Shown here: piece after piece, positions 5,701 to 64,000 of the stretch
Layout of the letters: each line of letters starts with the position of its first letter
Position numbering within the stretch: position 1 is the first letter of the stretch
Source of the DNA: Sphaerosporella brunnea
Lineage: Eukaryota > Ascomycota > Pezizomycetes > Pezizales > Pyronemataceae
Length of the DNA: 64,000 nucleotides
NCBI GenBank assembly: GCA_008704415.1
Contig: VXIS01000081.1
Coordinates: 1-64,000 of the forward strand
Direction: 5' to 3'
The notes under the pieces: generated by a model
Databases searched by the model: none
The model's input: the letters and a program-made list of their open reading frames with translations, nothing else
Told to the model about the DNA's origin: nothing
Translations under genes and position numbers: made by a program

Positions 5701-6469
5701 GTTGTGGTGGTCGCGCTTGCGAACGACGGAAACGTTCTGGGTCATTCTCGGTACTTGATGTTGCTTCACGGGCTGGTCTTCAAGGGTGTGCACCTCGCGT
5801 GTATCGTTCATAGCTGTATAATGCAGTGCAACTTGCGCAGATTTTCGCTACGGTTTCTGAAGGGAATTTGATGTCATTTGCGAATTGCTGCCAACAGTTG
5901 CCATTTCATTCGGTTCCGCGTTGATAGTGTACAGGTCTCTGATGGTCCAAGTGGAGGTTTGGCTTTCCTCCCCATGGCGTTATGCATAGCGTTGAAGATC
6001 ATGCGCCGTTCGATTTAGCGTTGTTCAAAATCCCAGCAACACAGTTTTGCAGTTATGAAATGCTTCAGCAACCGACGGAAGAGAAATGGCACTACTAACC
6101 CCCCTGGTGTACTTTGACCGAATAGGTTTCAGTTTCGGTATATGAACGATGATCACTGACCCGCACGTGCTGAAGCTCTGTATACACCCCGATCAGTGAG
6201 TGCAAGGCCGAGGAGTATCATACAGGCAGGGCTAGGGAATCATGATCCCCGAACGGGGTGCTGCCATTGCACTTGCCAGTGTAGACAACCGCCAGCGTTT
6301 TCCCCGTAGTACCTCAAAGTAAACCATGCCAGACACATTCAGGACGGCGGCCTGCGTCGGACGCAGTGAAAGGGAATGATTTTTGCAGGCATACAGCCTA
6401 TCCAGAGCTCCTCATCCCAACCCAAGCCCTTCCATCAACGGAGGACAAACAGTACCGAAAATCGTAGGA
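5701..6469. other. Intergenic, nothing recognised
   Basis: No frame with coding character, no clear repeat. The palindrome pairing visible in the window begins at 6,046. Confidence 0.5.
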
Positions 6470-6763
6470 ATTAAATAACGGCTTTTATGCCCTGTGCCCC
6501 CCAAAACATAGCGAAATGTCCAGTGTACCCCCCCGGAAGCTTTTTCTATGCCCCAGAGACCTCCGCCTCACCTCCCAATGTGCGCGCACCTTAGCATCGT
6601 TCGTATAGCTTAAAGAAAGGGAAGATCATAGGTCTTCATTTAGAGTCCAACAGTATTAAATTGACAACGCAAAAAAAGAGAAACCAGGCGGTAGCTCAGA
6701 GCTCCTTTCTGCAGATCGTTCTCTGTCCCCCTGCACATCTGTGTTCCCTCCCACGCTCCTCAC

Positions 6764-7108
6764 CTATGGGCCTCTCTGCACTTTACACTGTCCAATTGGA
6801 GCATCCGAAAGCTCAGAGTCAGAATCAGACTCGTCATGGTTGAAGTTTCCAGCTTGGCCCCGGGCTGTATGATTAACCGTCTCTGTAATACGCTGATCGG
6901 CAGCCTTCTTCAGATTTCTAACATCTTCTTGCTCGATAGGGACCATAGCAGCACTGTAGGTGTCCAGCCAGCTGTGCGCATGCACAAACGTAGGCATATA
7001 GTCCAGAGGAGCTTTTTTGAGACAGTTAATGACCGCGACTGCATGTCTACAAGGGATACCTGTATCTACAAAGCGTGTACAGGTACAGCTGCGAGCACCA
7101 AGCTCCAT
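6764..7108 (-). pseudogene. MULE transposase C-terminal fragment with SWIM zinc finger
   Basis: Reads SCTCTRFVDTGIPCRHAVAVI, the CxC...CxH pattern of the SWIM domain found near the C terminus of MULE transposases. The frame opens about 12 codons before the ATG (VLQISDRRFFTMELGARS) directly after a TGA, and that extension also fits the family. The tail is acidic and serine-rich (DESDSDSELSD). It lies inside the TIRs and has lost the catalytic domain, so it is a relic. Confidence 0.85.
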
Positions 7109-7581
7109 AGTAAAAAACCTCCTGTCACTGATTTGTAAAACTCAACCTTTGGTATGGCTACCGGTTCCCATCCGTACAGGATTGCCACCGGCATAAGAAA
7201 CGGAAGCTTTCAGGAGGGCGAGTCCCCAATCTGTAAGTCGTTGACCAGCGGGCAGTGCCATAGCTTGCTCATGACGTAGGAATCGACGGTGCATTTGATT
7301 GTGTTAAATCCAAAAGAGGATATCCAACACAGGCTTTGATCGTTTCTCCTGATACAGAGCATTAGCTGACTACACAATGTCCGACGTCAAAAAGCCAAAC
7401 CGTGAGCCAGGGAAAAAAAGCTCGTGCCTAGAAATACTCATGGCTACTTGGCTTGAGCTCTTTCAATTCTTTCATCGCTTTTTTTCAAACCCACGCAGCG
7501 TGCAAGCCTTTGCAATTGTCCAGAAAGCTTGACGAGCTCCAACACCGAATTTTTCCTGAATGTTTGGTTCGACACGGACAA

Positions 7582-7878
7582 TCACATTTTTTTCTGACGG
7601 TTGGACTTCTTAAAGTGAGGCTTAAAACCTTCAGAAACAGCCCAACGTGCCAGATATTCTTTGAAATCTTGAAATGTGGGAAACCCCTGCCCAACATTCC
7701 GTGCCCCCACCCTAGTTGCTAGGGGTGCAGTCACAGTGGCTGCGGTCGGGGTTGTGGTTTCTGGCCGCCAGTGTGTCGACATTGTTGGGTACGAAGAAAC
7801 TGACCGACAGCAGTGTTGATGGTGTGGGTGGATGGGTGCGGTGGTGAATATGTGGTGGATTGGTGTCGGGAAAGTCAC
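7582..7878 (-). pseudogene. MULE transposase N-terminal fragment
   Basis: GFPTFQDFKEYLARWAVSEG followed by FKPHFKKSNRQK resembles the N-terminal region of MULE transposases ahead of the zinc-binding part. A run of 7 T here versus 6 A in the right-arm copy shifts the frame: the left copy stops soon after KSNRQKK, while the right copy runs on to 62,562. It belongs to the same element as the SWIM fragment at 6,764. Confidence 0.55.
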
Positions 7879-8007
7879 TGATAATCTCGAGTCACAGTTT
7901 GAGGTGCGGGCATTGGGGGGTATGGGGCATAAAAAAAACTTCAGGGGGGTACGCTGGACATTTCACTATGTTTTGAGGGGTACGGGGCATAAAAGCCGAT
8001 TAAATAA

Positions 8008-9380
8008 TCAGACAGAACAAAAGGAAAGGTCAACAGAAACACCAGAACTGGCTTGGACCGCCTAGCCGTTACCATCCCTGGTTTCCTTTGATTCAGGGAA
8101 TGCGAATTCTCTAGATTTCCCCTCCCTATACAATACTCTGATTTTCACCTGTTAATCACCTCGTCGCATTGCTTGATTGCTTCTGCTCAGTTCCGTATAA
8201 GAGCGTGGCTCTGAGGAGGCCAAAAGTTGTCTAAACGAGCCTGTATTCTTGCCTAAAAATGCTGAGGCAGATCAAAGCAACCTCGAGAAAGGAAGCAAAA
8301 GCTATAGCCAGCTGGATATCGTAATAAAACAGGAGGTAAAGTTGCCACCGCAGTTCTACCGCAGTGACAAAAAGATAGAGTTATCACTGGGTATTTGCTC
8401 GCGAATGAGAGCCTCTCTCGGGGCCGAATAGAAGAATTAACTATCTGCGAAATCGTTCCAAACCGACAGTTGTTATAGACAGAGGGAGCTTCAACCCCTG
8501 TTCCATTCAATCGATCGGCGTGAAAGGATGATTGTTTGTTGCAATAGAACATCGGTCGATTCTGCCGACGGAAAGGCCCCCAATACTGTGGCAAAATGGC
8601 AGCGATACCGTACATACGGAGTTCATGAAGTCGTACAACCAGCATAGGCTCAAAACCATAGAGCAGTGTTGCCAATAGCCTGGCATTATGGTAAAAGCTG
8701 GAAATAGCTCATACTAGATTGCCGACAATGGGATCGCACTTTCTGCCACTCTTAACCGTCACTTCATGCGATCTCTCGCCCCAGATCGTTTTCATGGCTT
8801 ACGTGAGGTAGTGCCTCAACAACACCGCCCGTCGATCAGAAATTACCCCTGAAGGGATACCTTCATGGCTAATTCTGCTCGAACGACTCTGGTCCACCGT
8901 GAGTCGATTGTACCAATCGATGCGGATCACTGCAGTTGCATGTGAAGTTCAATTTGGTTCAATGGGTCTGGAGTGCTTCTCGTAGTGCAATTTCCTTGGT
9001 TTCTTTTATTTTTGTGGTCTGCTTGTGCATGGTGCTACGCCGGAAGCCAACAATTATCGCCTACCTTTGCGACAATATTGCGGGTCATCTCCACGGCGAT
9101 CGTGCAAGCACGCTCAGTTAAATTTGCAAGCACAGCTCTTTGAGTGCCATTTCCAGCCCACAGTTACGTATCTATTTCAACCAGTCACCTGCTACTATGG
9201 CTCGACGTAGGCTCCAACCACCAGACACAGGTGTATAGATTGCTATCGAGACCACTCAGGAAGCAGGATATATACTGGCATATATCTCCCGACTGGCAGA
9301 CTGACTGCTGACAACGCGAAAAATCCCAGAAGGACTAGAATTCAGTGAAGCACCGCAGGGCGACGTCCGCACATCAATTT
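8008..9380. other. No supported gene
   Basis: The largest frame is a 140-codon minus ORF (8,253-8,675) without a recognised domain, promoter or splice site; it is identical in the right arm (61,373-61,795). Nothing else was seen until the promoter at 9,385. Confidence 0.45.
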
Positions 9381-9384
9381 TGTC

Positions 9385-9393
9385 TATAAATAC
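9385..9393 (+). promoter_or_regulatory. TATA box of the 251-aa gene
   Basis: TATAAATAC, followed by about 145 nt of C/T-rich leader with no ATG, then the ATG at 9,538. The same TATAAATACC core occurs in repeat A and at about 16.15 kb. Confidence 0.75.
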
Positions 9394-9537
9394 CCAGAGC
9401 ATCCCTCCGAGTCTTCTTCACTTCACCTCCACTTACCTTCAACACCCTCCCTTTCAAACCCACGACCTCTATCCCACGAACATCCCCATCCTCGCCCCCC
9501 TCGCCGACGCTTTTTTCACCATCAAAAGCCTCAGGAA

Positions 9538-10293
9538 ATGCCGATTACCGACTACCGAGACGCGCTCGCTGCTGCTGCCGAGCGCTTGCGTCGCGGTGGA
9601 GCCTTCTCCGCTCGGATCTCCTACGAAAAGCTCACGACTGAGTACCTCCACGGGCCGGTTACGACCACGATCGCTATCCTGACCGCACAAAAGCGCGACG
9701 TAAACCAAATCATGGCAATCGCGAGTGAGTGGATGGCAGGTTCTCGACGAGTGGACGAAGACGCCGCCGCGGGGCCGGAGGTCCTTGCCGCGATCATCGA
9801 GCGGATCCAGCAGCTCGAGATCCTCCAGGAACATGAAAACGTCGAGAAGGCTCGCGATGGTGACAAGGCTCAGCGCACCACCACCAAGTCTTCGCCAAAC
9901 CCTGTGGCCGACGCTTCGGCTGGCGATGAGATCGTCCGCTACCGTATCGATGAAGATACACTCGAGGATGCGATTTTCTTCGTGCAGATGCAGAGCCTGG
10001 TCGAGATTTTTCGATCCAACCCCCGCGCTGCCATGATCAGCTACGACGACACCACGGCTGTTATGCATGCGATTAGAGTGGCCAGCGAGGACACCACCAA
10101 CACTGATACCATCGCCTCCGACGGCGTCGGCACGTTGCGTGACGACCGCGTCGCCACTGACAAGGTTGATTCCCACGGCGACAACGGCCGTCAGGACGGC
10201 AGCAAGAAGAGGAAGAGGCCGCGTCGCAGGCCTAAGCGTAAGAACCGTAACAACGGTCAGAACGACAACGTCCAGGGAGAACAGGACAACTGA
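9538..10293 (+). CDS. Orphan nuclear-type protein, 251 aa
   Basis: Function unknown. This is the best-supported gene in the window: a TATA box 150 nt upstream, an ATG-free C/T-rich leader, an uninterrupted frame and strong preference for C/G-ending codons. Residues 1-110 are predicted helical (DYRDALAAAAERLRRGGAFS; PEVLAAIIERIQQLEILQEH). Residues about 135-180 form a second ordered stretch. The C terminus is strongly basic (KKRKRPRRRPKRKNRNN), a likely nuclear localisation or nucleic-acid-binding tail, followed by Asn/Gln/Asp. No signal peptide or membrane segment is seen. The right-arm copy at 59,755-60,510 encodes the same 251 residues. No relative that I can name. Confidence 0.8.
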   Translation: MPITDYRDALAAAAERLRRGGAFSARISYEKLTTEYLHGPVTTTIAILTAQKRDVNQIMAIASEWMAGSRRVDEDAAAGPEVLAAIIERIQQLEILQEHENVEKARDGDKAQRTTTKSSPNPVADASAGDEIVRYRIDEDTLEDAIFFVQMQSLVEIFRSNPRAAMISYDDTTAVMHAIRVASEDTTNTDTIASDGVGTLRDDRVATDKVDSHGDNGRQDGSKKRKRPRRRPKRKNRNNGQNDNVQGEQDN

Positions 10294-12503
10294 GCTGGGA
10301 TAGTGGTCCGGTCGGTTTTGCGGTGGATGGTTGCTGTTTACCGCTTCGTGTGTTGTGCTTTGCGTGTTGTGCTTCTCACGGTTTCTTTTGAAACTGAGCT
10401 CCGTCGTCTTTGTACTTAGCGATCGTCACCGTTTCATTAGGACGGCGATGTCTCAATAGGAACAAACATTCGGCGTTCACATCTGGTTTCTTTTGGATAT
10501 TGATAAACTGTAGCATCTTTGATCGTAGTGAGGGCAACTGCGCGATATGTATTCTATCCAACATTTTATCTCCTCAAATATCAGTACAGCACCGCCATTT
10601 CCGGTGCGAAGTGGCGAGATGTCAAAGTATAGCGGCTCCGGACACCGAATCCCATCCTATAGGAAACACAGTGTGAAGAATATGATGACAACAAGGACTT
10701 CACGTGTTCGCAAAGTAAAGCTTCTAATCCCTTGCATATTCCGTAAACCTTCGGAAGTCGCTTCAGGACTTCACGTAAACATGCTATCTAGAGAGAAAAA
10801 TAATTCACGAGAATTCGTAATATACGGAAGCTGCTCTCTCGTGCAAATCTAAAGTGTGCCTGATAATCTGTGAGTTGTCATGGATCTCAGCCGTAACAGC
10901 GGGGACAACCTTGCCCCACATCACCTCATTACTTCTCCTCAACGCTGGTAACAGCCAACACGCCCCCTCCCTCGTCACCCACATCAGCACCCATCGCAGC
11001 CGCCATCATCTCCGCGTCGAAGGAACAGCGCCAATGGCTGGTATCGATAGTATCACCACCCTTCACGAGGCCACCTCACAGCTGAAGCTGTGGACGCCGC
11101 ACTTACAGCAACGAAAATTGGACAGCACAACGCGAGTTTTCATGTGTGACTGTTATCAGGAATGGTAGAAAACGGTTTCGTAGCATAGTTCAGAGCTTGG
11201 GATTGATATTGAGGGAAATAGCTGATAGAAAGATAGTGACGGTACGCCGAAAACTCTCCCAAAGGCATCGGGGAGACGAAGGATGTGTTCGACGCAAAGG
11301 CAAGGCGGTGGGAGATTATGGCGACAGGTACCTGACCGGCCGTGCTTTGATGTGCACAGAGCACCTTTTTTACAACACCTCGAGGCACATTTAAGACGTC
11401 TGCACATATTTTATCTCCATGAGCTCACATAGTTAAATGCTGTTCGGCCATCGATCGCCCATGGATTGTCGACCTCAAGAGATACCAAACAAAGTTTGAG
11501 AGATTCTGCATACATACATCATACAGTGGAGGTCTGTCACACAATTTCCGCAGGCAGTGCGACCCTACACCGATACGAACACGAAGAGGTTGACTTGTCT
11601 CGAAGGCATCAGTGTATGAAAAGAATCAATACCTTCCCAGCACTATGGTGACGAGGAAAGATAAGGCTGGTTGCAACCACCACATCGTCACCAAGCCTAC
11701 GGTGGCTTTTCATATCCGCGGCAAGGTCGGAACCGACATGCAGAAAGATACCAAGTCCATTCTGAAATCTGAATCGACCCCCGGGCGACAAATTAAAACA
11801 GCCAAGCACGAATGTTGGAAGAAATCAGGCTTGATGATGGGGCAGTTTTCGAGAGCACAGGAGAATAAGTCGGCAACAGGCTTGTTCTTCAACGATGCAA
11901 GCAATATCTCTCAGGCCCCCAGACTCGAGGCGGGCTTCGGTTCCTGCCTTCGCAGAAACTATTCCGCCTACGCTACGTCATGGATGATGCATTGCTTATA
12001 CCGGATCTCATTGACGCGTCGTTTCAGTATTCCAGGATGCAACACACAACGAGGCCTGTCCATCCAAGGCAACGATAAACGGCGAGACAGCAAGTCCCAC
12101 GGTTGTGTCCGGAGCTTGATATAGACGGGCACAAAAACCGCATCAAGAGGGGCAAGTTGAGGGACAGCTTCCAAGGCCTCAAGCTTTGCATGATAAAGCA
12201 CAGCGTACGATTACAGGCTGAGTGTTTCAATGGGATGTCAACTTCCTTCCGGATCGGTTATGAAGGCATGATGACCGCAGGCATGCGTGGTTACATGTGG
12301 ATGGAGGGCTACGCTACAACGGGGTTGTTGCAAGTTTCTGTCGACCGGCATAACCCTTTTCAGGCTCCTTTCAACACGGGTTGATATATATACTGCGTCA
12401 CTGTTGCAGCAGACGCGAAGTACGAAAAGAGCTATTCGAGTTATTGTTATACTCCAAACTCAGTATCAAGGATTAAGAGGTCTTAACGGGGCCCGGCATA
12501 AAC
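10294..12503. other. No supported gene
   Basis: Frames such as 11,612-12,124 plus (170 codons) and several of 60-105 codons are present and duplicated in the right arm, but none shows a domain, coding-type codon use or promoter. The region is more AT-rich than the gene upstream. It may hold decayed repeats. Confidence 0.45.
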
Positions 12504-12559
12504 AAAGTATCAATCGAATCCCGAACCCAGGACCGGCCTCAACACCGGCCTCACATACC

Positions 12560-12812
12560 GCCCACTACCCCAGTTGGAGCCCTTCTGGACCGTGGAAAGC
12601 CATCGCCGCGGAGGTGTTTGATGCCGAAGTCTACGCAATCTACCGAGCCGTCCACCGTTTTAACCAACGCTCAGAGAGTGGCCAGGCATACACCATCTTT
12701 GCCAACGCCCAGACGGCACTGGAACGATGCAAAGGCGACTGTATGGACTCCGAGCAGTGGATGGCTCGCCGCATCATCAAGTGGAGTCGGAGGAGAAGGC
12801 CACCTACATATC
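12560..12812 (+). pseudogene. LINE RNase H domain fragment
   Basis: AEVFDAEVYAIYRAVHRF followed by YTIFANAQTALERC and QWMARRIIKW matches the middle of RNase H in fungal Tad-type LINE ORF2. The Glu after the beta strand is kept (FDAE), but the position that normally carries the catalytic Asp reads Asn (IFANAQ). The domain start with its first Asp is absent, and a MITE-like element interrupts the 3' side. The enzyme is therefore dead. The family is recognised from motif order; no alignment was run. Confidence 0.65.
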
Positions 12813-12955
12813 AGGGCCGCTCAGACGGGCGTTTTTGACTTGGATATCCGAATTTTCAACCGGCTGTTTATCGATGTCTGTAAGCCATTTGACGCCGAAA
12901 CTGGCCTTAAATCCAGAAACGTCGAAAAAATATAAACGCCTGTCTGAGCGGCCCT
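12813..12955. mobile_element. 143-bp MITE-like element in the LINE
   Basis: Terminal inverted repeats of 22 bp, AGGGCCGCTCAGACGGGCGT at one end and its near-perfect complement at the other (one mismatch). No coding capacity. The target duplication is not clear; flanks read ATATC and ATCCT. The AGGG terminus and size would suit a hAT-type MITE, but that is a guess. Right copy: 57,093-57,235. Confidence 0.7.
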
Positions 12956-13494
12956 ATCCTGCATTTTCGGCGGTATACCGCATACGAAAGTTGGCCAACC
13001 CGTGGTGCAGGAAGATTACTTGTCATCATCGGCTGAAGAGGAATCAGAGGGGTGGCCATGGCTTTGTTTCCGTTGTTACGGGCATGTTTTTCTTTCTTTT
13101 GTCATGTTTTCCTCTTACTAACTTTTCCTTTCTAGTATGTTAAGTAGCCGCAGTTGACACATGAAACAGCATCAATAATGGGGCGAACAGGATAAGTGAG
13201 GGGATGAGGAGGGGGCCTGTCATGATCGTTCGCGGCCACATACAGACAATAACCTTGATTACAAACATAAAGTATCAATCGAAATCACAAGCAAAGCAAT
13301 ACGACCACAGCATCTGAATACCCCTGGAAGAGGGCACATGGCCTAAGAACACGAAGGCACGCTCAGCTTGACCGGCCCAGACTCTGGTTGAAGGTATTCT
13401 ACTATATGGGAGTTTTGCAGCGCCTAACTCTCCTGGAAAATCATTAACTCGTCTACAGCATCCACAAAAAGCTAACTATGGCAAGCGTCGAGAG

Positions 13495-13625
13495 GGGGAG
13501 GAAGAGGAGGAGCGGTAGGAGGTGGAGGAGGAGCGGTTATGCGGTCCTGGTGGCCATGGCAATCTAGGCCCCTTTTGGGTCTGTTTCTTTCCTGTGCTAT
13601 TTCGCTTATCATTGGCCCATCATCC
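13495..13625 (+). mobile_element. Second LINE 3'-region fragment
   Basis: Purine-rich GGAGGAGGAG, then GGTCCTGGTGGCCATGG and CTGTTTCTTTCC in the same order as at 33,535-33,610, and similar to 13,030-13,110. Only the upper part of the tail is present; the terminal GATCGTTCGCGG block is not found here. Confidence 0.45.
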
Positions 13626-14630
13626 TTATTGCATATTCTCTTTCCACATAACTAGTGTTATGTATGGTGCACGCAGTTTATGAAAGGGATGCAAGAAGAC
13701 GGGCTGGGCATCAGCTTCTTAGAAGACTTTAGTTTGATATATTTGATGACTTTCAGCGTGTTGAATCGTGCGGTTGTTATGGAGTAGTGGTGCTGCTGTT
13801 GAGGTCACGCGTTGATGGCTTTGGTTTCTGAGCAGCTACACCTCCTTACAGCACTTTTTCCTGCTGAATGTTCGGTGGCAACATAGAGGGATATTAGCTT
13901 GAAGACCTCCTAGCGTGTCGCGATATTTAACGGTCTATAATACTGAGAAACTGGGTAAAAACTGGGTCTCCGGAGATGTCCCCAATTGTGCCCTTGAGTC
14001 TGCAAGAAAATAGACACCGGAAATCAATTCTACACTATCGATTTAGGTATCCTAGGGGCTCGCTGCCTTTGATTTCTGTGTGGTTGTGGTGTGGCCTCAT
14101 GCTTTTGTTTTCCTGAACCTCGACCACTGCGGACACTCTAGAGCCCAGGATTGTTCAGATAGGAGAACCAACCAAGAAAGATAAACAGAAAGCGTGGGAG
14201 ACTATTTTCCTCATATCTAGAATTTTTTATATGCACAGACTTGCTTGGGCACGGGACGGTTTTCACCATACACAGTGCTTGAACGCCGTTACTGATATCT
14301 TATTGTCCTTGTATCCGCAAGGTAAAACAAAGCTGTTACATGGCAGTGCTCCTCTTGCTCCCCAGCCTGACAGATTGCTTTTGTCTATCCAATCGCTGAA
14401 CGCCGATTTATCGCAGTCGCTTTCTTCGCCCCAATTATAGACTGCGTGCACCATAGGTGTATTCAGCACTTTTAAGTTTCAACACTGCGGGAGAGGGCAG
14501 TATTCAGGGTTGCCGCAGTTGAGGCATGAGATTGTACCAATAAGGCGGTGGATAGGACATGGGGGGGATGGGAAGCCTCTTTCGCGACCAAGATCCCGGA
14601 GTGATAGATAGATAGTGGATCAACCTGGAG
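13626..14630. other. No supported gene
   Basis: AT-rich sequence with frames below 70 codons. It contains the place (about 14,050-14,060) where the right arm carries its extra 0.9-kb insert. Confidence 0.5.
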
Positions 14631-14633
14631 TAA

Positions 14634-15341
14634 TTTTTATTTGTCAAACTACCATCAAAAATCACCGCACTCGCACACGCGCTAACACCTGCTGGCGCTC
14701 CGTTCCACGGATCGCTTCACCTAAAATCGGGTCACCGCTTTACCAGACCCACGGATCCTCACACACTTCGTTCGCCATGGGTCGCCAATTCTGCCACCCA
14801 GACGCTGTCCGCACCCGCACCCCCGCCCCCGCCCGCAACGACGGGGGCGGAATCGCCGGCAGCTCCACCTGCTGCGCCAAAGTCGAAACGCAAGCGCTCC
14901 GGGCCGCCTAGCCCGGCGCAGAAACCGACAAAGCACGCACGGGAGATCTCCCCCCCCCCCCCCTCCCTGATGCATTCGAAGCATGCAGGGCCGAGCGACG
15001 CACTGGTTTCGGTGCGCCCAACGCCTGGCACGCGAGATGCGCCAGCCCCGTCCGCCCCCCGCGATGAGGCTGAGGCGAAAGAGGGATGGAAGAAGGTTGA
15101 GAGAAAGAAGCGCAGGCGGCCCTCGGGCCGTACCGCGGCACAGTCAGCCGGGAAGAGCGTCCCGTCCTGGGCCCAAGTGGCCGGTGATGGAGCCGTGTGC
15201 TTCAACTTCTACATAGGAGGAGCGGGCAACACCAAGCCACGCACGACGCGCAAACCCCAGGGGGGCAAAAAGAAGGAGAAGGAGAAGGGGAAGAGGAAGG
15301 GGAAGGAGAGGGAGCAGCGGGCTTCGGACGTGCGGGGTTGA
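14634..15341 (+). CDS. Pro/Ala- and Lys/Arg-rich frame, possible retroelement ORF1
   Basis: Open from a TAA at 14,631 to TGA at 15,341, with the first in-frame ATG only at 14,970. The upstream part is Pro/Ala-rich (PAPPPPPATTGAESPAAP) with basic KSKRKRSG. The downstream part has KEGWKKVERKKRRRP, then SWAQVAGDG, then a Lys/Glu-rich tail. Basic clusters with a WAQVA motif resemble N-terminal (ORF1) proteins of fungal LINEs, but no zinc knuckle is seen and nothing downstream encodes endonuclease. The right-arm copy (53.69-54.42 kb) is broken by many indels. A spliced cellular gene is the alternative. Confidence 0.4.
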   Translation, partial: FLFVKLPSKITALAHALTPAGAPFHGSLHLKSGHRFTRPTDPHTLRSPWVANSATQTLSAPAPPPPPATTGAESPAAPPAAPKSKRKRSGPPSPAQKPTKHAREISPPPPSLMHSKHAGPSDALVSVRPTPGTRDAPAPSAPRDEAEAKEGWKKVERKKRRRPSGRTAAQSAGKSVPSWAQVAGDGAVCFNFYIGGAGNTKPRTTRKPQGGKKKEKEKGKRKGKEREQRASDVRG

Positions 15342-16130
15342 AGAGGGGATGAAACACAGTCCTTTCTGTATACTTTTTGCGATTTCCTTGATTTTCTTTC
15401 CTTCGGAGGAGCAGGCCCCAGAGTAGGACCCCGAGCCTAGGGGTAGCGATGATTCTGATTTACCTATATTTCATGGCCGCAAGCGGCCGAATACATTATG
15501 ATTGAAACAAAACAAACTTCGTTTTCAATCGCAAGAGCTGTCAACGTCGGACCCCAGCGTGCCGGCGCCTTCTAAGACTGTGAGCTGGTGCCGCAAGGTA
15601 CGCATACCGGGGACATCAAGTACGCTGAGTTCATGGAACTAAATCCATATGGCCCATCGCTGTTGCGATGTCGGCAGAGGTGCCTAATGCTTAGGTGTCC
15701 GCTATGTAGAGTTTGAGGATGCGGAGCATTATGCCGGCCAGAGCCTCTCCTTCTTGCAAACTTAAGGTATAGCAGTCTGCTTCATGATATTTAGGCTGCT
15801 GAAAGTGGTGATCCTGACGACCTTGCGGCGCGGTGGTGCGTGCTGATGAACCAATTGCCGAGCATGTGAAATATTATTGGAGAAGCCCGTCGCATGAGGC
15901 GCCGGCGTGACACATTTGAAGAAGTCAAAAACCTCACTCTCTCGCCATCAGCCAGAGAAGTGATGTTTTTTTATAGAGGAAAAACCCTCAAAGGGGACAA
16001 AAACCTCTGCCACATGTCGGGTTATTCTTTCTTCCACGTTTCGGGGGCCCTGCAGTATGCCATTTGCTCTTATCGTGCACAGTTACACATTGTTCTTTTT
16101 CTTGTTCTGGGGAGAAAAAGAAGGAGGAAA
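15342..16130. other. No supported gene
   Basis: Only short frames and no clear repeats. Precedes a promoter-like segment on the minus strand. Confidence 0.45.
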
Positions 16131-16139
16131 GGAGGGAAA

Positions 16140-16205
16140 GTCGGTATTTATTGGCGAGGATGAGGCTCTGCAGGGTTTTGGCCGACGTTTTGGCCGACAT
16201 TCTGG
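16140..16205 (-). promoter_or_regulatory. Promoter-like segment related to repeat A
   Basis: On the minus strand two GTCGGCCAAAAC copies are followed by AATAAATACC and a pyrimidine-rich stretch. Repeat A has the same order (GTCGGCCAAAAC, ATAAATACC, C/T-rich). This is a third partial relative of that promoter module. Confidence 0.5.
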
Positions 16206-16637
16206 TAGAGTGCCTCCATGTGGAGCAAGAGTGCCAGTCAATTTGAATTTAGGGGTAGTTACGCTACATTGACAAGAAAAATGGGGCCACTAAAGTCTTT
16301 GGGGGTACCAGGCATGGTAGCTGTAAATATCATTGCTCACACATCACACAATGGCAAGCGAAGATCCGACTGACACTGCCTGCTCGCGAGTGATCGAGCA
16401 TGAAAACAATCATAAGGGCGCAATTTCGGGGATAATGAAGCGGATAAAAAGGAACGGGACGGTAGCCCTACAACGAGTCAAGGAAGTAGAGACCGGCGAT
16501 TTGCAGGTTGAACGATTTCTTTAGCTGCGGCTAGAGAGTGTTTTCGGCTGAGTTCTGTTTTCACCACAAATATGATCTACCCTAAAAGACCTGAATCTGG
16601 CTAACTTGTCCTCACATTCTAAAACAATGAAGAGAAC

Positions 16638-17270
16638 CAAAGAAATCAAATCTCACCACCTCGCAAGCAGCCAAGCAGCAAGATTTTTTGTTTCGCCGTC
16701 GTCGACTGAGCCGACGACAGCCAGGAGGAAATAAAGCTCGCGGCATCGCCGATATTGCCTTAAAAACCCCCTGCCTCACCGTTTTTGATTATATAAAACC
16801 CGCAGATGCTAGGCCACGAGCCGCCGCTCCATCACAGCGGGCTTGTGGACCAGGGAATGGCGCCTACTGGTCTTGGGCAGCCCTCACTCGAGGTGGACAA
16901 GAGCCACTGGCGCTCCAGTGAGGGTGTGTCGTCACGCGTCCGGCGCTGGTCTTGTATTCTTTTCGAAGGCATCGGGCGGGATTACCTTAGAGTGAGCGAT
17001 GAACATGCACGGCTCCGCCTCTTGCGTATGCGAATCGAGAACCCGGAAAGGATATTCTCAGTAAAGATGGCGTCCCTGTGGAGATAGGGGCATCCCCAGC
17101 CGAGATGGAAGGAGGTGTGATAAGTAGTGGAGAAGGTGAGGAGCAGGCGGTATTTATATTTATCTGAATGCTGGGTAACAGGGGTTGTTTTGGCCGACAT
17201 TATGAAGTGCTATGGCAATATTTGGTCGCATCATAGCTGGTTGTTCGATGTTGCCGCCATCAGGTGTCAC
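16638..17270. repeat. Dispersed repeat A, copy 2
   Basis: Second copy of the element at 3,317-3,931, about 633 bp. It keeps the 81-codon plus frame with few changes (ends ERIFSVKMASLWR in both). On the minus strand it has a clear TATA-like ATAAATATAAATACC at about 17,150-17,166, preceded by GTCGGCCAAAAC. The 18-bp excess over copy 1 lies near the 3' end. Right-arm partner: about 51,687-52,310. Confidence 0.85.
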
Positions 17271-20200
17271 ATTCATTCCAGCATATTTTTAGTGTTCTTG
17301 ACGACGTTTTTCCAGTCGGAGAGCGAAATCCAAGCTGGCCGCGACTCCTAAAAGCGGAATCTGATTAATATTGATTCTACTCTGCCCACCAACACTAGTA
17401 CCCAGTGAATGGTTACCGAAACTGCCAGGAGGTGTATTTCCTCCTCCTGGCTCATAGCCTTCATCCTCCACCCCGAAGTACTGGCTTCTAACTCAACCGC
17501 TGGCATGAGGCTGCAAAACGTGCAGCTTGAGGCTGGATTAGTTCCCTGTTTTCGTTTTTGGCCCGTGTGCTTCTCAATGCTCCTGCTCGCTCTTCTCGGT
17601 GCTGGCTGTTCTCACGCGGGAATAATCGAGCCTTATATCCCCCATCCGAGATAGCGGCCACCTGTTCTTAAGAGACAGTAAAAGCTTCACCACAATTCGC
17701 ATTTTGTAAATTGAAATAGCCCGTGTCTTTCTCACTTATAGAGGGAGCGGGTGCTTCTTTGCGTGCCTGCAATACAGGTGGCATGAATGCTATTCAACAA
17801 ATTCTGGATTCAAATTTGCAGTTCAATTCAAGAGGTTAACAAACCGTGAACATTCATTTCCACACACCCTACACAACACCATTTCCCACTCAACGAGAAT
17901 ATCCAATCAACTGCTTGCTTTCCATTCGCCTTCACAGCCACTCATTCCTTGCGATACCGCCTGACGTCTGTTGGTGAAACAGGTGGCCGCTTGGTGGCGT
18001 AGATCTATCCGAGGGTCCGGGGCACCATCGCCACGCACGCACTCTCACGACTGCCAACTGGAATTAGAAAAAGCTCGTGTTTCTGCTGAGGAAAGGTGCA
18101 TACCAGTCGCCCCCGGGAATGAGATGGTAGGTGGCTGGTACATACAGTTCCTTATGAATCCTTGCGAACTCACATGTATCGCTCATCCCATGGCTTGCAC
18201 ACCAACACACACTTCACGCTCCCCGCAGGGTGCACAAGTCGTAGGAACAAAGCGGGTTGTGGCAGGAGATTATGCTGACTCGCTTTGTTCACACCTCGGA
18301 GCCCCCACCTCCTCAGAGCAACGGCAATGCTATGCGGGGAGGCAGGATATAGTGCGCAGAAGCTGAAAACCAGCAGCTGCCTCAAGAGAATCCCGAACAC
18401 ATTCTTCTCTCTCTCTCGAAGACGCCATTAGGTTTCCCCCCATTCTCAACGTAGGGAGGGAAGGAATACCATCCTGGCGGACTGGGAAACCAGACGCTTC
18501 ATAGCCATGGTGGCAGATGAATGCGGTAACACATCTCTGTTTTGTTTTTTTTTCAAAAAATGAAAACGCAACTTCCTAGGCATGCCAGGTCGGCGTGCCT
18601 TGAGGGGATCGCTGTAATCTATCAGTTTATTAGTCACCGTCGTCCTCTTCTTCTTCATGGGAAGGTACGATCTTACATCCTGGGAAACCGACGCGAGTAT
18701 GTCACGCCTGTGGCTGTGGAGGTGCGCCCCTCCGTTGCGTGCGATGATGACATCCGACATCATGTTGCGGCCAATGATCTCGTGTCCGGAGCGTTACTAC
18801 CCAGAAAGCTGGCCATACCTGACGCCCGAGGCGTGGCCGCACGTGCCTGACAGCACATGCTCCCGCGAGAGTGAGTGTAGAAACCGTGTGGTTCGTTGCG
18901 GAAAGTGGGAACAGCAGGTTGCCAATAGCCGGCGGCTGGTGTATCGAGGTGGTGGTTGGGAGCGAAAGGAAAGAAACAGGCTGCGTGTTGGTGGTTGTTG
19001 CTAGCAGATGTTATGATACCTACCTTAGCATCTCGAGGATCGTGTTGTGTTCGTAGGCAACTTCGAGATCACTGCATAGCACTCGCAAGCTGATACAAGT
19101 GCCGTGAGACGTGATGGCATTTTATTCTACACCCGTGGGCGGTGGTGTCTTGCATGTGCTTTAGACTGGATTAAGACTTCCCGGGAGCGGCTGTTTACTA
19201 CTGTCTGGGAATGAGTGCCTGCCTGCTCGCATTTACGTTTTTGACGCGGATGGACAAGTTCCCGAGGTACGGCTTGCAGGGACAAGATATGGCTTTCCCA
19301 CAATGTTTTTCCAGGGAACATGGACGATGGATCTGCATTGTGCTTTGTCTTGTACGCTGCAATTTTAGTGATCCCTCTCCCACACCCTGGTTTGCTCGAC
19401 GTGCGTCGCGACTATGATATTGAATATCTGAGGCAAAAGTGTTTCGAATTCGCCATACGGTAGAAAAGAACCGCCGATCTCAAAAACCTCCGCGACTCAA
19501 GCGTTGCATTCCTCCGCCACTAGTCGATCTCCTCGTCTTCTTATTCATGATGAAAAACCGCTTGGCGCACAGATCCTGTGTGATCGTGCATGTGAGTTGC
19601 TCTCTTGAGCATGGGCGACCTCTGTAATCCATTAGTATCTCAGCTCCCGGGGAATTAGATTCTGATGTGTATTGACCTATGTTCAGGCCGAGGTGATGTT
19701 GTTTTCCCTCGTCAAGGTCTTGCAGGTTCGTGGGAACCGCAATGCATGTCTGTTTCTATTGCCAACTCTGCCGCCCGGTCGCACCGGATCGGTACTGGCC
19801 CGGGGGATGCAGCTCGCATCAGTTTGATCGCCCTGTTGTGCGCCGCCCCCCCCCCCCCCTCTTCGCCCGGTTCTCCGTGCGTAACTGTCAAACCCGAAGT
19901 CTGCGCTATGCCTGGTGTGGTGAGTCCAAAGCCTTGGGTGATTTCACTTTGACAACACCTTCAGATGTTGCCACGGCAGAATGGGGACTGTCGAACCGTA
20001 TCGTGTGAGAGAAGATGTTTGCTGGAGTGGATCTTTGTTAAACACTTACGGTGATGTGTCACTGACACGGAGGTGACAATCTCGAAGACAACAGATAAGC
20101 AGTGTCTCTCTAGCCCGCTCGGTCGACACGCACATTACGTCAGGATGGATATTCCAACACTTTTGTTGTCACGCGCGCCTTCAGCGAGGCTTGGCTTTGG

Positions 20201-22850: not shown

Positions 22851-23319
22851 CTCTCGAGCTACGACATACTTAGCGTGCTTCGTGAAGTATAAATATAGAC
22901 GAGTATTCGGAGGGTAAGTACCTTTTCTTCCGTTTCGCTCAACTGAGTCGTTCTCTGCATCCAAGCTCCCCAGGCAAGACCTGGGGAGATCGAGTTGACG
23001 CGGATCTGGAGGTGCGTAGCGCTTTTGACCTGGTCTTCTTTCTCGCCGATTCTATCGCGCGCTCCACGTCTCGCAACCCAGGGCAAGGGAGATGACCTGC
23101 GCGGGAGAGCACCGATCGCCCGCGCCGTCTTTACCGTTTCTTCGTAGGCGTGCTATCGAGTGGCTCGGCATCAATCTTTGTTCAGCTAGAGCCAATAGAG
23201 ACGAGAAGCCTTACGTTGACTCTGCACCTCCCTTGGGAGTATTGTGCGCAACCTCCGAAATCGCGCGTTGCACGGCGTTGCATGTGTGGTAAGTAAGATT
23301 TCCGTAGCCCCTCTTTTGC

Positions 23320-23368
23320 CTACAAACATCAGTCAGTAAGCCGAATTGTGGTGGATCGGAATACTTAC
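23320..23368 (-). other. Predicted 49-nt intron
   Basis: GTAAGTATTCC donor, TTACTGAC branch region and TTTGTAG acceptor. The donor extends well beyond the usual six bases and matches those at 26,348 and 26,047. Identical in the right arm (45,557-45,605). Confidence 0.65.
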
Positions 23369-23454
23369 TTTGGGCTTCCCCACGATGTGGTAAGAGGGAG
23401 ACCCGTAGCCCTCATACCGAACGTGTAGCATCGCAAGCTCCAGCAAGCGGAGAG

Positions 23455-23515
23455 CTAGATATCGACAGTTAACATGCACCACCCTTTTGCAGGCGCTTAT
23501 CGGAGTTACACTTAC
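23455..23515 (-). other. Predicted 61-nt intron
   Basis: GTAAGTGTAACTCC donor, GTTAAC branch region and ATCTAG acceptor. It leaves an 86-nt exon before the next intron. Right-arm copy 45,410-45,470. Confidence 0.5.
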
Positions 23516-23864: not shown

Positions 23865-23915
23865 GCGGTGATGGTACCGTAAATATTTGGGGTGTAAAGA
23901 GCTGGGGTGGGTGTG
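23865..23915 (-). promoter_or_regulatory. Conserved block B, outer copy
   Basis: On the minus strand: GCACACCCACC, then TTTACACCCCA, four bases, then TTTACGGTACC, followed within 20 nt by an ATG. The same order and spacing occurs at 31,365-31,410. Position just upstream of a unit suggests a core promoter. Confidence 0.45.
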
Positions 23916-51686: not shown

Positions 51687-52310
51687 GATGCGGCAACATC
51701 GAACAACCAGCTATGATGCGACCAAATATTGCCATAGCACTTCATAATGTCGGCCAAAACAACCCCTGTTACCCAGCATTCAGATAAATATAAATACCGC
51801 CTGCTCCTCACCTTCCTCACTACTTATCACACCTCCTTCCATCTCGGCTGGGGATGCCCCTATCTCCACAGGGACGCCATCTTTATGAGAATATCCTTTC
51901 GGGTTCTCGATTCGCATACGCAAGAGGCGGAGCCGTGCATGTTCATCGCTCACTCTAAGGTAATCCCGCCCGATGCCTTCGAAAAGGATACAAGACCAGC
52001 GCCGGACGCGTGACGACACACCCTCACTGGAGCGCCAGTGGCTCTTGTCCACCTCGAGTGAGGGCTGCCCAAGACCAGTAGGCGCCATTCCCTGGTCACA
52101 AGCCCGCTGTGATGGAGGGCGGCTCGTGGCCTAGCATCTGCGGGTTTTATAATCAAAAACGGTGAGGCAGGGGGTTTTTAAGGCAATATCGGCGATGCCG
52201 CGAGCTTATTTCCTCCTGGCTGTCGTCGGCTCAGTCGACGACGGCGAAACAAAAAATCTTGCTGCTTGGCTGCTTGCGAGGGTGGTGAGATTTGATTTCT
52301 TGGTTCTCTT
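51687..52310. repeat. Repeat A copy 2, right arm
   Basis: Mirror of 16,638-17,270 with several small losses. Confidence 0.8.
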
Positions 52311-52740
52311 CATTGTTTTAGAATGTGAGGACAAGTTAGCCAGATTCAGGTCTTTTAGGGTAGATCATATTTGTGGTGGAAAACAGAACTCAGCCGAAAA
52401 CCACTCTCTAGCCGCAGCTAAAGAAATCGTTCAACCTGCAAATCGCCGGTCTCTACTTCCTTGACTCGTTGTAGGGCTACCGTCCCGTTCTTTTTATCCG
52501 CTTCATTATCCCCGAAATTGCGCCCTTATGATTGTTTTCATGCTCGATCACTCGCGAGCAGGCAGTGTCAGTCGGATCTTCGCTTTGCCATGTGTGATGT
52601 GTGGAGCCAATGATATTTACAGCTACACCATGCCTGTAACCCCCAAAGACTTAGTGGGCCCCATTTTTTTGTCAATGTAGCGTAACTACCCTCTAAATTC
52701 AAATTGACTGGCACTCTTGCTCCCAGGGAGGCACTCTTCC

Positions 52741-52815
52741 AGAATGTCGGCCAAAACGTCGGCCAAAACACCCTGCAGAGCCTCATCCTCGCCAATAAAT
52801 ACCGACTTTCCCTTC
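52741..52815 (+). promoter_or_regulatory. Promoter-like segment, right arm
   Basis: Mirror of 16,140-16,205: two GTCGGCCAAAAC copies, then AATAAATACC and a C/T-rich stretch. Confidence 0.45.
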
Positions 52816-53689
52816 CTTTCCTCCTTCTTTTTCTCCAGAACAAGAAAAAGAACAATGTGTAACTGTGCACGATAAGAGCAAATGGCATACTGCAGGGCCC
52901 CCGAGAAACGTGGAAGAAAAGAATAACCGACATGTGGCAGAGGTTTTTGTCCCCTTTGAGGTTTTTCCTCTATAAAAAAAACATCACTCTCTGGCTGATG
53001 GCGAGAGAGTGAGGTTTTTTGACTTCTTCAAATGTGTCACCGCCGGCGCCTCATGCGACGGGGCTTCTCGTCATATAATATTTTTGCAGAATTCGATGCT
53101 CGGGCATATGGTTGCATCGAGCACGCAACCATCTTCAGCGCGCAAGGTCGTGCAGGGTCACTACACTTCAAAGCAGCCTAAATGAGGCATGAAGCTAGCA
53201 CTGCTATACCTTAAGTTTGCAGAGAGGAGAGCTCTGCCGCATAATGCTGCCGGCATCTCTAACTCTACATAGCGGAGCGGCCTAAGCATTAGGCACCTCT
53301 AGCCGACAGTCGCAAGCAGCGATGGCTCATATGGATCTTTAGTCACATGCGAACTCAGCGTACTGATAGTCCGCCGTATGGGCGTACCTCTTGCGGCTAG
53401 GCCAGCTCACAGTCTATAGATTGGCGCCGCTTATGCGCTGGGGTCGTGCGACGTGAGCAGCTCTCTATGCGATTGAAACGCAAGTTGTTTTGTTCAGATC
53501 ATAATGTCACTCGCGCGCGTGCGGACTATGAAATATAGGTAGATTCAGAATCATCGCTAGCCTTCCGAGCTCGGTGTGCCTACTCTAGCGCTCGCTCCGT
53601 CCGAAGGGCAGAAAATCAAGAGAAATCGCAGATAGTATATCAGAAAGGACTGTGTTTGCATCCCCTCTATTCACCCCAGTATGCACGTC

Positions 53690-54415
53690 CGAAGCCCGCT
53701 GCTCCCTCTACGCTCTTCTCGGCCTTCTCTTCCCCTTCTCGCTGTCATTCCTTCTTTTTGCCCCCTGGGTCTTGCGCGATCGTGCGTGGCTTAGGTGTTA
53801 GCCACGCATCCTACCTATGTAGAAGTTGTAAGCACAGCGGGCTCACATCAGCGCCACTTGGGCCTCAGTGACGGGACGCTCTTCCGCGCTGACTGTGCCG
53901 CGGTACTGCCCGAGCCGCCTGCGCTTCTTTCTCTCACTCTTGCTTCATCCTCTTTCGCCTCAGCCGCATCGCGGGTGGGCGGACGGGGCCGGCGCGGATC
54001 TCGGCGTGTCCAGCGTTGGGCTCGCCTACCTAGCCGAAACCAGTGCGCTCGCTCGCCCTGCATGCTTCGAATGCATCAGGAGCGAGGAGATCTCCCGTGC
54101 GTTGCTTTGTCGGTTTCTGCGCCGGCTAGCGCCCGGAGCGCTGCGTTTCGACCTTGGCCGCATGGCAGGGGAGTTCTGCCGCGATTCCGCCACCCCGTCG
54201 TTGCGTGCGGGCGGGCGGGCGGGGTGCGGGTGCGGACAGCAGTATGGTGTGCATGAAGTGGCTGACCCATGGCGAAGCGAAGTGTTTCGTGAGGATGCCG
54301 TGGGTCTGTAAAGCGGTGACCGATCGATTTAGGTGAAGCGATCTCGTGACGGAGCGCCAGAGCAGGTGTGTTAGCGCGTGTGCGAGTGCGGTGATTGTGA
54401 TGGTAGTTGACAAAT
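53690..54415 (-). pseudogene. Broken copy of the Pro/Lys-rich frame
   Basis: Mirror of 14,634-15,341. It aligns by eye along its whole length but with frequent insertions, deletions and substitutions, so no long frame survives on the minus strand. Confidence 0.6.
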
Positions 54416-55070
54416 AAAATTAGCATCCAGTGATACCTCCCTACTATGCTATCTATCACTCCGGATCGTGTCGCGAAGAGCTTCGTCCCTCCCCACGGAT
54501 GTCCGTACTCCACCGCCTTATTGGCTACACGATCTCATGCCTCAAGCTGCGGCAACTCCTGATATACTGCCTCTCTCTCGCAGTGTGAATTACTAGACGT
54601 GCTGAATACAGCCTATGGTGCACGCAGATCTATAATGGGGTCGAGGATAGCGGACTGCGATAATGCGTGCGTTCAGCGATGTGGATAGTACAAAGCATCT
54701 GTCAGGCTGGTAGCTACAGAGGAGTCACTGCCATGTAACAGCTTTGTTTACCTTGCGGATACAGGACATATAAGTATATCATGTAACGCGTCAGCCTGTG
54801 TATGTAGAAAACCGTACCCCAAGTGCCTAAGACCCCGTGGCTTAAAGCTGATAGTCTGATGCTATATAACAAAATTCGTAGATATGAGGAAATAGTCTCC
54901 ACGCTTCTCGTTATCTTTCATGTTGCAGTCTCTCCTATCACTGAACAATCCTAGGCTCTAGAGTGTCCGCAGTGTGTCGAGTGTCAGGAAAACACAAAGG
55001 GCATGAGGCCACACACAAAACACAGAAATCAAGCAGAAAGCAGCGTCAGGAGCAGTAAGCGAGCCCAGAA

Positions 55071-55967
55071 GGCATCAGAAGCGAAGCAGCGACCTAGCAC
55101 CCTAAGAACGGCTTAGAGTGGGGGGGGGGGGGTACGCTACGAGGCAAGCCCTACCCCCCCAACCTCGCCCAGCGAGAGAGCCCAGCAGCGAAAAGGTCAT
55201 CAAAACAGCAGCGAACGCAGAACTTACAGTCCAAACAGCCAAGAATGAGGTCAGCAGCGAATAGCAGCATGCAAGAGCGAAGATTACAGCGATTATTTCG
55301 AGGAAGCACAAAGAGAAGAGCAGACAGCGCAGGGATCCAGAAAAAGTAATCAAGAAGAGTCAATCGTAGTCACCGCAGAGGCGATTTGAGAGCGATGCTC
55401 CCAGAAGAGAAAGCGATAGCGAGCAAGGCAAGCAGCTCATTAGCAGCCAGGACTGGCAGCGAGAGTAGAAGCAGCCAGAAGAGAGAGCAGGAAGACCACA
55501 GAGTGAGCGAAGGTCATACGCCAGCACACACACAGAGTTCAGTAGCAGGCAGAAGAAGAAGACAAGGTAGCGAACAGCAAGCCCACACTGTCCATATCGC
55601 CCCAAGCCAGGTGAGCACCACCCCCAGAAGCAGCGCGCCCCAGCTTCCCATTCCGTACAGCCCAAACCCCACGCATGCCAGACATCCCCCAAGCCCAGCC
55701 TAGACAGGCCCACCCAAACCACCCATCCCCGCCCCCCCCCCCCCCACCCCAGTCCCAGCGCCCCCCAAGCCCCCCCCCACAGACCCAGCCATCAGCACCA
55801 AACCACCCCCCCCCGCACCCTCCCCTCCCCCCCACAGCCTCACCCCCCCAGCCTCAAGCAGACCAGAGCAGCCCCGCGAAGAAGATGCCTGCCCAGCGAG
55901 CTAATAGGAGGCGAGCAGAGAGGCGAACGATCGAGAGAGGAGAGACCAATATCAGTAGCCAAAGCGA
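55071..55967. other. Unpaired T-poor insert, about 0.9 kb, right arm only
   Basis: The left arm reads continuously across the corresponding point (about 14,050-14,060), while here about 897 bp are inserted between GCGAGCCC and CCCCTAGG. The plus strand is strikingly poor in T: the first part is built from A, G and C (AGCAGCGAA-like strings) and the last part is C-rich with runs up to about 14 C. No terminal repeats, no target duplication beyond three C, no frame with a recognised domain. Confidence 0.8.
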
Positions 55968-56422
55968 AGTCCCCTAGGATACCTAACGATTTTTTTTGTT
56001 TGTTTTAGGTTGCAGAATTGATTTCCCGGCACGTGTCTATGATTGCAGGGACTTCAAGGGCACCAAATTGGGACAATCCTCCGGAGGACCAGTTTACCCA
56101 GTTTTCCAGTATATAGACCGTTAAATATCGCGACACGCTAGGAGGTCTTCAAGCTAATATCCCTCTATGTGCCACCGAACATTCAGCAGGAAAAAGTGCT
56201 GTAAGGAGGTGTAGCTGCTCAGAAACCAAAGCCATCAACGCGTGACCTCAACAGCAGCACCACTACTCCATAACAACGCACGATTCAACACGCTGAAAGT
56301 CATCAAATATATCAAACTAAAGTCTTCTAAGAAGCTGATGCCCAGCCCGTCTTCTTGCATCCTTTCATAAACTGCGTGACACCATACATAACACTAGTTA
56401 TGTGGAAAGAGAATATGCAATA

Positions 56423-56553
56423 AGGATGATGGGCCAATGATAAGCGAAATAGCACAGGAAAGAAACAGACCCAAAAGGGGCCTAGATTGCCATGGCCACC
56501 AGGACCGCATAACCGCTCCTCCTCCACCTCCTACCGCTCCTCCTCTTCCTCCC
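56423..56553 (-). mobile_element. LINE 3'-region fragment, right arm
   Basis: Mirror of 13,495-13,625, near-identical. Confidence 0.4.
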
Positions 56554-56763
56554 CCTCTCGACGCTTGCCATAGTTAGCTTTTGTGGATGCGTGTAGACGA
56601 GTTAATGATTTCCAGGAGAGTTAGGCGCTGCAAAACTCCCATATAGTAGAATACCTTCAACCAGAGTCTGGGCCGGTCAAGCTGAGCGTGCCTTCGTGTT
56701 CTTAGGCCATGTGCCCTCTTCCAGGGGTATTCAGATGCTGTGGTCGTATTGCTTGCTTGTGAT

Positions 56764-57544
56764 TTCGATTGATACTTTATGTTTGTAATCAAGGTTATTG
56801 TCTGTATGTGGCCGCGAACGATCATGACAGGCCCCCTCCTCATCCCCTCACTTATCCTGTTCGCCCCATTATTGATGCTGTTTCATGTGTCAACTGCGGC
56901 TACTTAACATACTAGAAAGGAAAAGTTAGTAAGAGGAAAAACATGACAAAAGAAAGAAAAACATGCCCGTAACAACGGAAACAAAGCCATGGCCACCCCT
57001 CTGATTCCTCTTCAGCCGATGATGACAAGTAATCTTCCTGCACCACGGGTTGGCCAACTTTCGTATGCGGTATACCGCCGAAAATGCAGGATAGGGCCGC
57101 TCAGACAGGCGTTTATATTTTTTCGACGTTTCTGGATTTAAGGCCAGTTTCGGCGTCAAATGGCTTACAGACATCGATAAACAGCCGGTTGAAAATTCGG
57201 ATATCCAAGTCAAAAACGCCCGTCTGAGCGGCCCTGATATGTAGGTGGCCTTCTCCTCCGACTCCACTTGATGATGCGGCGAGCCATCCACTGCTCGGAG
57301 TCCATACAGTCGCCTTTGCATCGTTCCAGTGCCGTCTGGGCGTTGGCAAAGATGGTGTATGCCTGGCCACTCTCTGAGCGTTGGTTAAAACGGTGGACGG
57401 CTCGGTAGATTGCGTAGACTTCGGCATCAAACACCTCCGCGGCGATGGCTTTCCACGGTCCAGAAGGGCTCCAACTGGGGTAGTGGGCGGTATGTGAGGC
57501 CGGTGTTGAGGCCGGTCCTGGGTTCGGGATTCGATTGATACTTT
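56764..57544 (-). mobile_element. LINE insertion with target duplication, right arm
   Basis: Mirror of 12,504-13,283. The 15-bp direct repeats are at 56,764-56,778 and 57,530-57,544; the RNase H fragment is at about 57,236-57,488. Confidence 0.65.
57093..57235. mobile_element. 143-bp MITE-like element, right arm
   Basis: Mirror of 12,813-12,955; both terminal repeats present. Confidence 0.7.
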
Positions 57545-62265: not shown

Positions 62266-62562
62266 ATGTCGACACACTGGCGGCCAGAAACCACAACCCC
62301 GACCGCAGCCACTGTGACTGCACCCCTAGCAACTAGGGTGGGGGCACGGAATGTTGGGCAGGGGTTTCCCACATTTCAAGATTTCAAAGAATATCTGGCA
62401 CGTTGGGCTGTTTCTGAAGGTTTTAAGCCTCACTTTAAGAAGTCCAACCGTCAGAAAAAATGTGATTGTCCGTGTCGAACCAAACATTCAGGAAAAATTC
62501 GGTGTTGGAGCTCGTCAAGCTTTCTGGACAATTGCAAAGGCTTGCACGCTGCGTGGGTTTGA
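62266..62562 (+). pseudogene. MULE N-terminal fragment, right arm
   Basis: Mirror of 7,582-7,800. With 6 instead of 7 bases in the homopolymer the frame continues past KSNRQKK into CDCPCRTKHSGKIRC, 32 residues further, to a stop at 62,562. Confidence 0.5.
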
Positions 62563-62937
62563 AAAAAGCGATGAAAGAATTGAAAGAGCTCAAGCCAAGT
62601 AGCCATGAGTATTTCTAGGCACGAGCTTTTTTTCCCTGGCTCACGGTTTGGCTTTTTGACGTCGGACATTGTGTAGTCAGCTAATGCTCTGTATCAGGAG
62701 AAACGATCAAAGCCTGTGTTGGATATCCTCTTTTGGATTTAACACAATCAAATGCACCGTCGATTCCTACGTCATGAGCAAGCTATGGCACTGCCCGCTG
62801 GTCAACGACTTACAGATTGGGGACTCGCCCTCCTGAAAGCTTCCGTTTCTTATGCCGGTGGCAATCCTGTACGGATGGGAACCGGTAGCCATACCAAAGG
62901 TTGAGTTTTACAAATCAGTGACAGGAGGTTTTTTACT

Positions 62938-63282
62938 ATGGAGCTTGGTGCTCGCAGCTGTACCTGTACACGCTTTGTAGATACAGGTATCCCTTGTAGA
63001 CATGCAGTCGCGGTCATTAACTGTCTCAAAAAAGCTCCTCTGGACTATATGCCTACGTTTGTGCATGCGCACAGCTGGCTGGACACCTACAGTGCTGCTA
63101 TGGTCCCTATCGAGCAAGAAGATGTTAGAAATCTGAAGAAGGCTGCCGATCAGCGTATTACAGAGACGGTTAATCATACAGCCCGGGGCCAAGCTGGAAA
63201 CTTCAACCATGACGAGTCTGATTCTGACTCTGAGCTTTCGGATGCTCCAATTGGACAGTGTAAAGTGCAGAGAGGCCCATAG
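62938..63282 (+). pseudogene. MULE SWIM fragment, right arm
   Basis: Same 114 codons as 6,764-7,108, with the CxC...CxH motif. Confidence 0.85.
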
Positions 63283-64000
63283 GTGAGGAGCGTGGGAGGG
63301 AACACAGATGTGCAGGGGGACAGAGAACGATCTGCAGAAAGGAGCTCTGAGCTACCGCCTGGTTTCTCTTTTTTTGCGTTGTCAATTTAATACTGTTGGA
63401 CTCTAAATGAAGACCTATGATCTTCCCTTTCTTTAAGCTATACGAACGATGCTAAGGTGCGCGCACATTGGGAGGTGAGGCGGAGGTCTCTGGGGCATAG
63501 AAAAAGCTTCCGGGGGGGTACACTGGACATTTCGCTATGTTTTGGGGGGCACAGGGCATAAAAGCCGTTATTTAATTCCTACGATTTTCGGTACTGTTTG
63601 TCCTCCGTTGATGGAAGGGCTTGGGTTGGGATGAGGAGCTCTGGATAGGCTGTATGCCTGCAAAAATCATTCCCTTTCACTGCGTCCGACGCAGGCCGCC
63701 GTCCTGAATGTGTCTGGCATGGTTTACTTTGAGGTACTACGGGGAAAACGCTGGCGGTTGTCTACACTGGCAAGTGCAATGGCAGCACCCCGTTCGGGGA
63801 TCATGATTCCCTAGCCCTGCCTGTATGATACTCCTCGGCCTTGCACTCACTGATCGGGGTGTATACAGAGCTTCAGCACGTGCGGGTCAGTGATCATCGT
63901 TCATATACCGAAACTGAAACCTATTCGGTCAAAGTACACCAGGGGGGTTAGTAGTGCCATTTCTCTTCCGTCGGTTGCTGAAGCATTTCATAACTGCAAA

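Follow-up and report, generated by a model that had tools for sequence, protein, structure and literature searches.

A giant palindrome at a contig start in the draft Sphaerosporella brunnea assembly and its probable origin as a long-read artefact

Palindromic reads have been described for several long-read systems and are the closest known parallels to the structure analysed here. For PacBio reads, the Pacasus report gives palindrome frequencies of 45.8% in amplified Arabidopsis, 11.8% in gorilla and 0.5% in a non-amplified control, and states that missed SMRTbell adapters yield the same read structure as the palindromes formed by amplification (PMC6218980). It also records that inverted duplications were visible in the published gorilla Y assembly and that none was detected in its corrected version (PMC6218980). 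In the Breakinator paper, foldback reads are put at about 0.55–0.6% in ONT genomic data, with virtually none in PacBio HiFi (PMC12870357). Palindromic reads are also described as pervasive in amplified tardigrade DNA in a further study (PMC13265396).

Here we analyse a giant palindrome in a draft assembly of S. brunnea that comprises 640 contigs and 50.57 Mb. The structure lies at the start of contig VXIS01000081.1 (152,373 bp; hereafter C621), and the window, the whole 64,000-nucleotide stretch of DNA that was analysed, corresponds to its bases 1–64,000. Judged from sequence comparisons, the palindrome of C621 is very probably an artefact of long-read sequencing and assembly and not a structure of the organism. 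With the whole-genome-amplification palindromes treated by Pacasus (PMC6218980), it and similar structures in other contigs have in common head-to-head copies, variable turns, occurrence at many loci and the appearance of inverted duplications in assembled contigs, which are known here from the assembly alone. In the foldbacks handled by Breakinator, the forward strand is likewise succeeded by its reverse complement, either directly or after a stretch of unmapped sequence (PMC12870357). They differ in that an adapter found in another contig of this assembly, C289, points to PacBio, the technology for whose HiFi reads that paper saw virtually no such structures.

Geometry of the palindrome and differences between its arms

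The original prediction described a giant palindrome with a 46-bp loop, and self-BLAST of the window confirmed that such a structure is present in the assembled sequence, with its centre at 34,442–34,487. On the minus strand, positions 6046–14034 match 64000–56011 at 99.5%, and 14069–55032 pair with their own reverse complement at 95.9%. Partner positions in the window sum to 68,929 at the centre and to 70,045–70,059 outside, in keeping with the predicted values of about 68,926–68,930 and about 70,048; the jump between the two, near 14 kb, arises because the right arm holds a net excess of about 940 bases. This excess falls in a noise tract at about 55,033–56,010 (minus strand) made of long C/G runs and AGCAG/AGAG patterns, which is lacking from the left arm, where its counterpart has only about 34 bases. 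Comparison of the whole contig with itself showed that base 1 partners base 70,058, and pairing thus reaches the contig start. The predicted arm length of at least 28 kb therefore holds, the arms being in fact about 34.4 kb (left, plus strand, 1–34441, starting at base 1 of the contig) and about 35.6 kb (right, minus strand, reverse complementary to the left, covering 34488–64000 of the window and extending in the contig as far as 70,058). The proposed start at 6046 does not stand, since this position merely partners the last base of the window. The length and identity of the arms exclude an origin by chance.

The palindrome is terminal, with a flank beyond the right arm only and a left arm that ends with the contig. 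Beyond 70,058, the remaining approximately 82 kb of C621 (to 152,373) contain no large inverted repeat. A natural inverted duplication would be expected to carry different unique sequence outside each arm, and the left arm has no flank; an artefact would be expected to leave its second arm at the edge of the contig, unflanked by unique sequence, as observed.

The arms were compared by anchored alignment and their differences counted in four bins of the left arm. The bin 1–13,100 contains 0 substitutions and 5 indels, the bin 13,100–24,000 contains 107 and 597, the bin 24,000–33,900 contains 1 and 15, and the bin 33,900–34,441 contains 0 and 3. Over the four bins indels exceed substitutions (620 versus 108), as would be expected of an artefact. 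The pattern is probably that of poorly corrected long-read sequence, since evolved divergence should have put substitutions in the clean parts of the arms too.

The diverged block occupies 13100–24000 in the left arm (plus strand) and 44926–56947 in the right arm (minus strand). Among single extra bases, 165 of 262 in the right arm lie outside homopolymers, against 199 of 244 inside homopolymers in the left arm (Fisher p ~6e-25), and by this measure the right arm behaves as the error-laden copy. If it does hold the errors, they consist of random insertions and of runs that have lost bases: in its part of the block, single-base insertions are scattered outside homopolymers, and homopolymers are shortened. 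An open frame of 235 aa is present in the left-arm block at 14634–15338, and the right-arm block has no open frame of at least 200 aa. Because no Pfam domain was found in the seven left-arm ORFs tested, the arms were judged from ORF lengths, from indel context and from an outside repeat copy. The last of these is provided by a direct repeat of 600 bp (94%) at 3317–3916 and 16639–17243 of the window, within the left arm and mirrored in the right, whose outside copy served as an error yardstick for both arms. Relative to it, 24 substitutions, 3 deleted and 5 inserted stretches were counted in the left arm, compared with 25, 10 and 6, respectively, in the right. With its open frame and its fewer deletions the left-arm block is the cleaner copy; the near-equal numbers of inserted stretches (6 right, 5 left) are a point against an artefact. 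The asymmetry of errors is indecisive on its own, because polishing of one arm also fails in real inverted repeats.

Fold-backs in other contigs and an adapter in C289

A survey of the 40 tips of 20 other contigs, taken as every 32nd contig number, revealed terminal or whole-contig fold-backs in six (C1, C225, C289, C417, C449 and C481), the recurrence at unrelated loci that an artefact would be expected to produce. Among the 15 left tips for which a self-match was obtained, four fold back (C1, C225, C417 and C449), with inverted partners at 98–100%, as does one of the 18 right tips with a self-match (C481). The two tips of C289 are mutually reverse complementary over 500 bp (99.4%, 0 mismatches), and this contig turns near its middle. 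The turns of all six are present in the examined DNA: that of C1 has a 69-bp spacer (26 gaps, 2 mismatches), that of C289 a 237-bp spacer and that of C225 a short unpaired centre, and those of C417, C449 and C481 are symmetric; in C225, C417, C449 and C481 the spacer is so short that the BLAST alignment stays unbroken. When the 400-bp centres of C621 and the six others were compared, only one 14-base match was found in common, so no common element is seen that would make the turns.

As an interior control, 15 pieces were fetched, of which nine were fully queried with a self-match returned, and none of the nine has an inverted partner among the matches listed. The difference between 4/15 left tips and 0/9 interior pieces is not significant alone (Fisher p = 0.26), and the weight of the survey lies in the near-perfect inverted partners found again and again at the ends of contigs, not in the contrast between tips and interior. 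The left tips of C65, C97, C353, C513 and C289 and the right tips of C225 and C289 are outside these counts; the left tip of C289, queried in part, and the right tip of C225 gave no self-match. The left-tip searches scored the best 40 of 90 and the best 40 of 219 candidates and, in the third, 11 of 11; the right-tip searches scored the best 40 of 255, 148 and 85 candidates, and the interior control the best 40 of 257. Negative results of the survey are weak, because the best 40 candidates were scored and dispersed repeats crowd the right-tip lists; a repeat search of four right tips (C321, C417, C449 and C481) revealed the fold-back of C481, which had been missed before. A match between the left and right tips of C65 (95%, 200 bp) was not counted, being common to C353 and taken as a dispersed repeat.

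The SMRTbell adapter has a length of 45 nt, to which the 46-bp spacer of C621 is close. The adapter sequence was scored at the seven turns against shuffles of each centre (n = 300) and, for C289, C449 and C621, against shuffled-adapter decoys (n = 200). A PacBio SMRTbell adapter is present almost in full at 22,814–22,865 of C289 (score 58, reached by 0/300 shuffles and 0/200 decoys), where it adjoins the start of the right arm after a T/C-rich noisy stretch. The turn of C289 is an unrecognised SMRTbell adapter, and this is demonstrated for one fold-back of the assembly only. No adapter was detected at the turn of C621 (34442–34487), whose score is reached by 63 of 300 shuffles and 197 of 200 decoys, and no clear one at the turns of C1, C225, C417 and C481, where 280, 197, 101 and 273 of 300 shuffles, respectively, reach the score. 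At C449, none of 300 shuffles reaches the adapter score, but 9 of 200 decoys do. Outside C621, a missed adapter is thus found at C289 and not clearly at the other five turns. An adapter-like score of 39.5 at about 70,980, the best in C621, was taken as chance, because random Markov contigs of equal length give 35.5–41.5 (8 runs) and no inverted repeat surrounds the site. Compared with missed SMRTbell adapters as the Pacasus report presents them (PMC6218980), the fold-backs studied here agree in their head-to-head structure and, at C289, in the near-complete adapter at the turn; they differ in that the spacer sequence of C621 lacks an adapter match and in that spacers vary from contig to contig.

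Origin of the palindrome and its consequences for the assembly

The original prediction had left the choice between a notable natural structure and a fold-back artefact of assembly. The artefact is favoured because of the terminal position of the palindrome, the indel-type divergence concentrated in one block, the recurrence of fold-backs in six of the 20 other contigs sampled and the adapter in C289, and the natural options found no support in these comparisons. The adapter in particular makes an artefact more likely, and the rival explanations, including a native cellular process, less so. For C621, we infer that a self-inverted read was the cause, that the genome holds a single copy of the locus and that its reads were shared out between the two arms. 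On this view, the self-inverted read or molecule would have turned back near 34,465 and so linked the true locus, followed forward from 70,058 to about 34,488, with its own reverse complement. The assembler would then have traversed the locus once more up to the point where the reads gave out, at what became base 1, and reads divided between the two layouts would have left one arm poorly corrected over about 10 kb. Such a second pass over shared reads must be assumed, because about 35 kb, the length of each arm, is a long stretch for a single read to cover. The turn of C621 may be due to a missed adapter or to an amplification chimera; the high rate of fold-backs would be in line with amplification of the library, or with older PacBio data in which many adapters were missed.

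A real and recent inverted duplication, whether a fold-back, a product of breakage-fusion-bridge cycles or a head-to-head fused chromosome end, is in our judgement very unlikely. Arms that are near identical over about 23 kb and separated by a short spacer are what a young duplication would look like, and the spacer of C621 carries no adapter; yet the divergence is dominated by indels and confined mainly to one block, the arm stops exactly at the contig end, and the same structure is present in 6 of 20 other sampled contigs with unrelated centres, one of them with an adapter at its turn. Less probable still is a native process that would have generated many recent terminal inverted duplications of about 3–35 kb at chromosome or fragment ends, for example by fold-back end repair. 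Symmetry alone would suit a palindromic linear plasmid, mini-chromosome or amplicon with its arms joined at the spacer, but this is barely credible given that the right arm runs in the same contig into the 82 kb that lack a large inverted repeat, that no Rfam match in the window reaches the gathering threshold and the seven arm ORFs tested have none in Pfam, and that the tandem-repeat list includes no evident telomere-type array.

With the long-read artefact as the preferred explanation, the consequences extend beyond C621. Six of the 20 sampled contigs carry apparent false inverted duplications, and C289 keeps a sequencing adapter inside the contig. If other contigs are affected at this rate, estimates of genome size, numbers of genes and calls of duplications would all be inflated. 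The contig ends of the whole assembly need to be screened and trimmed before use.

Copies of the arm sequence and dispersed repeats

Four segments of the C621 arms, about 15 kb in all, were searched against the assembly (window positions 33000–34600, 1–6045, 24000–28000 and 54000–57500), with the full list of matches scored for 24000–28000 and the best 40 for the other three. Among the matches listed, none is full-length outside C621, and only shorter dispersed repeats were found. The window holds 0 tRNA genes and 0 RNA genes, and yields no Rfam match at gathering thresholds. Three dispersed repeats stand out in the arms. The stretch 57091–57238 (about 150 bp, with its mirror in the left arm) has at least 37 copies on other contigs at 96–99% identity and is a young dispersed repeat that matches no Rfam family at gathering thresholds. 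Another, of about 310 bp at 33455–33767 and mirrored in the right arm, has at least 39 copies elsewhere at 71–79% identity. The third, of about 255 bp at 2107–2361, has at least 34 copies on other contigs at 82–85% identity. Some of these copies form pairs of like orientation separated by about 7.3 kb (C9, C44, C133 and C142), as expected for the LTRs of retrotransposons, and about 12 of the listed copies are no more than about 1.4 kb from a contig start. Close to the far end of C621, at 150,078–151,058 on the minus strand, a retrotransposon polyprotein fragment is present that has a chromo domain match, together with a Tf2-1-like SH3 match below the Pfam cutoff.
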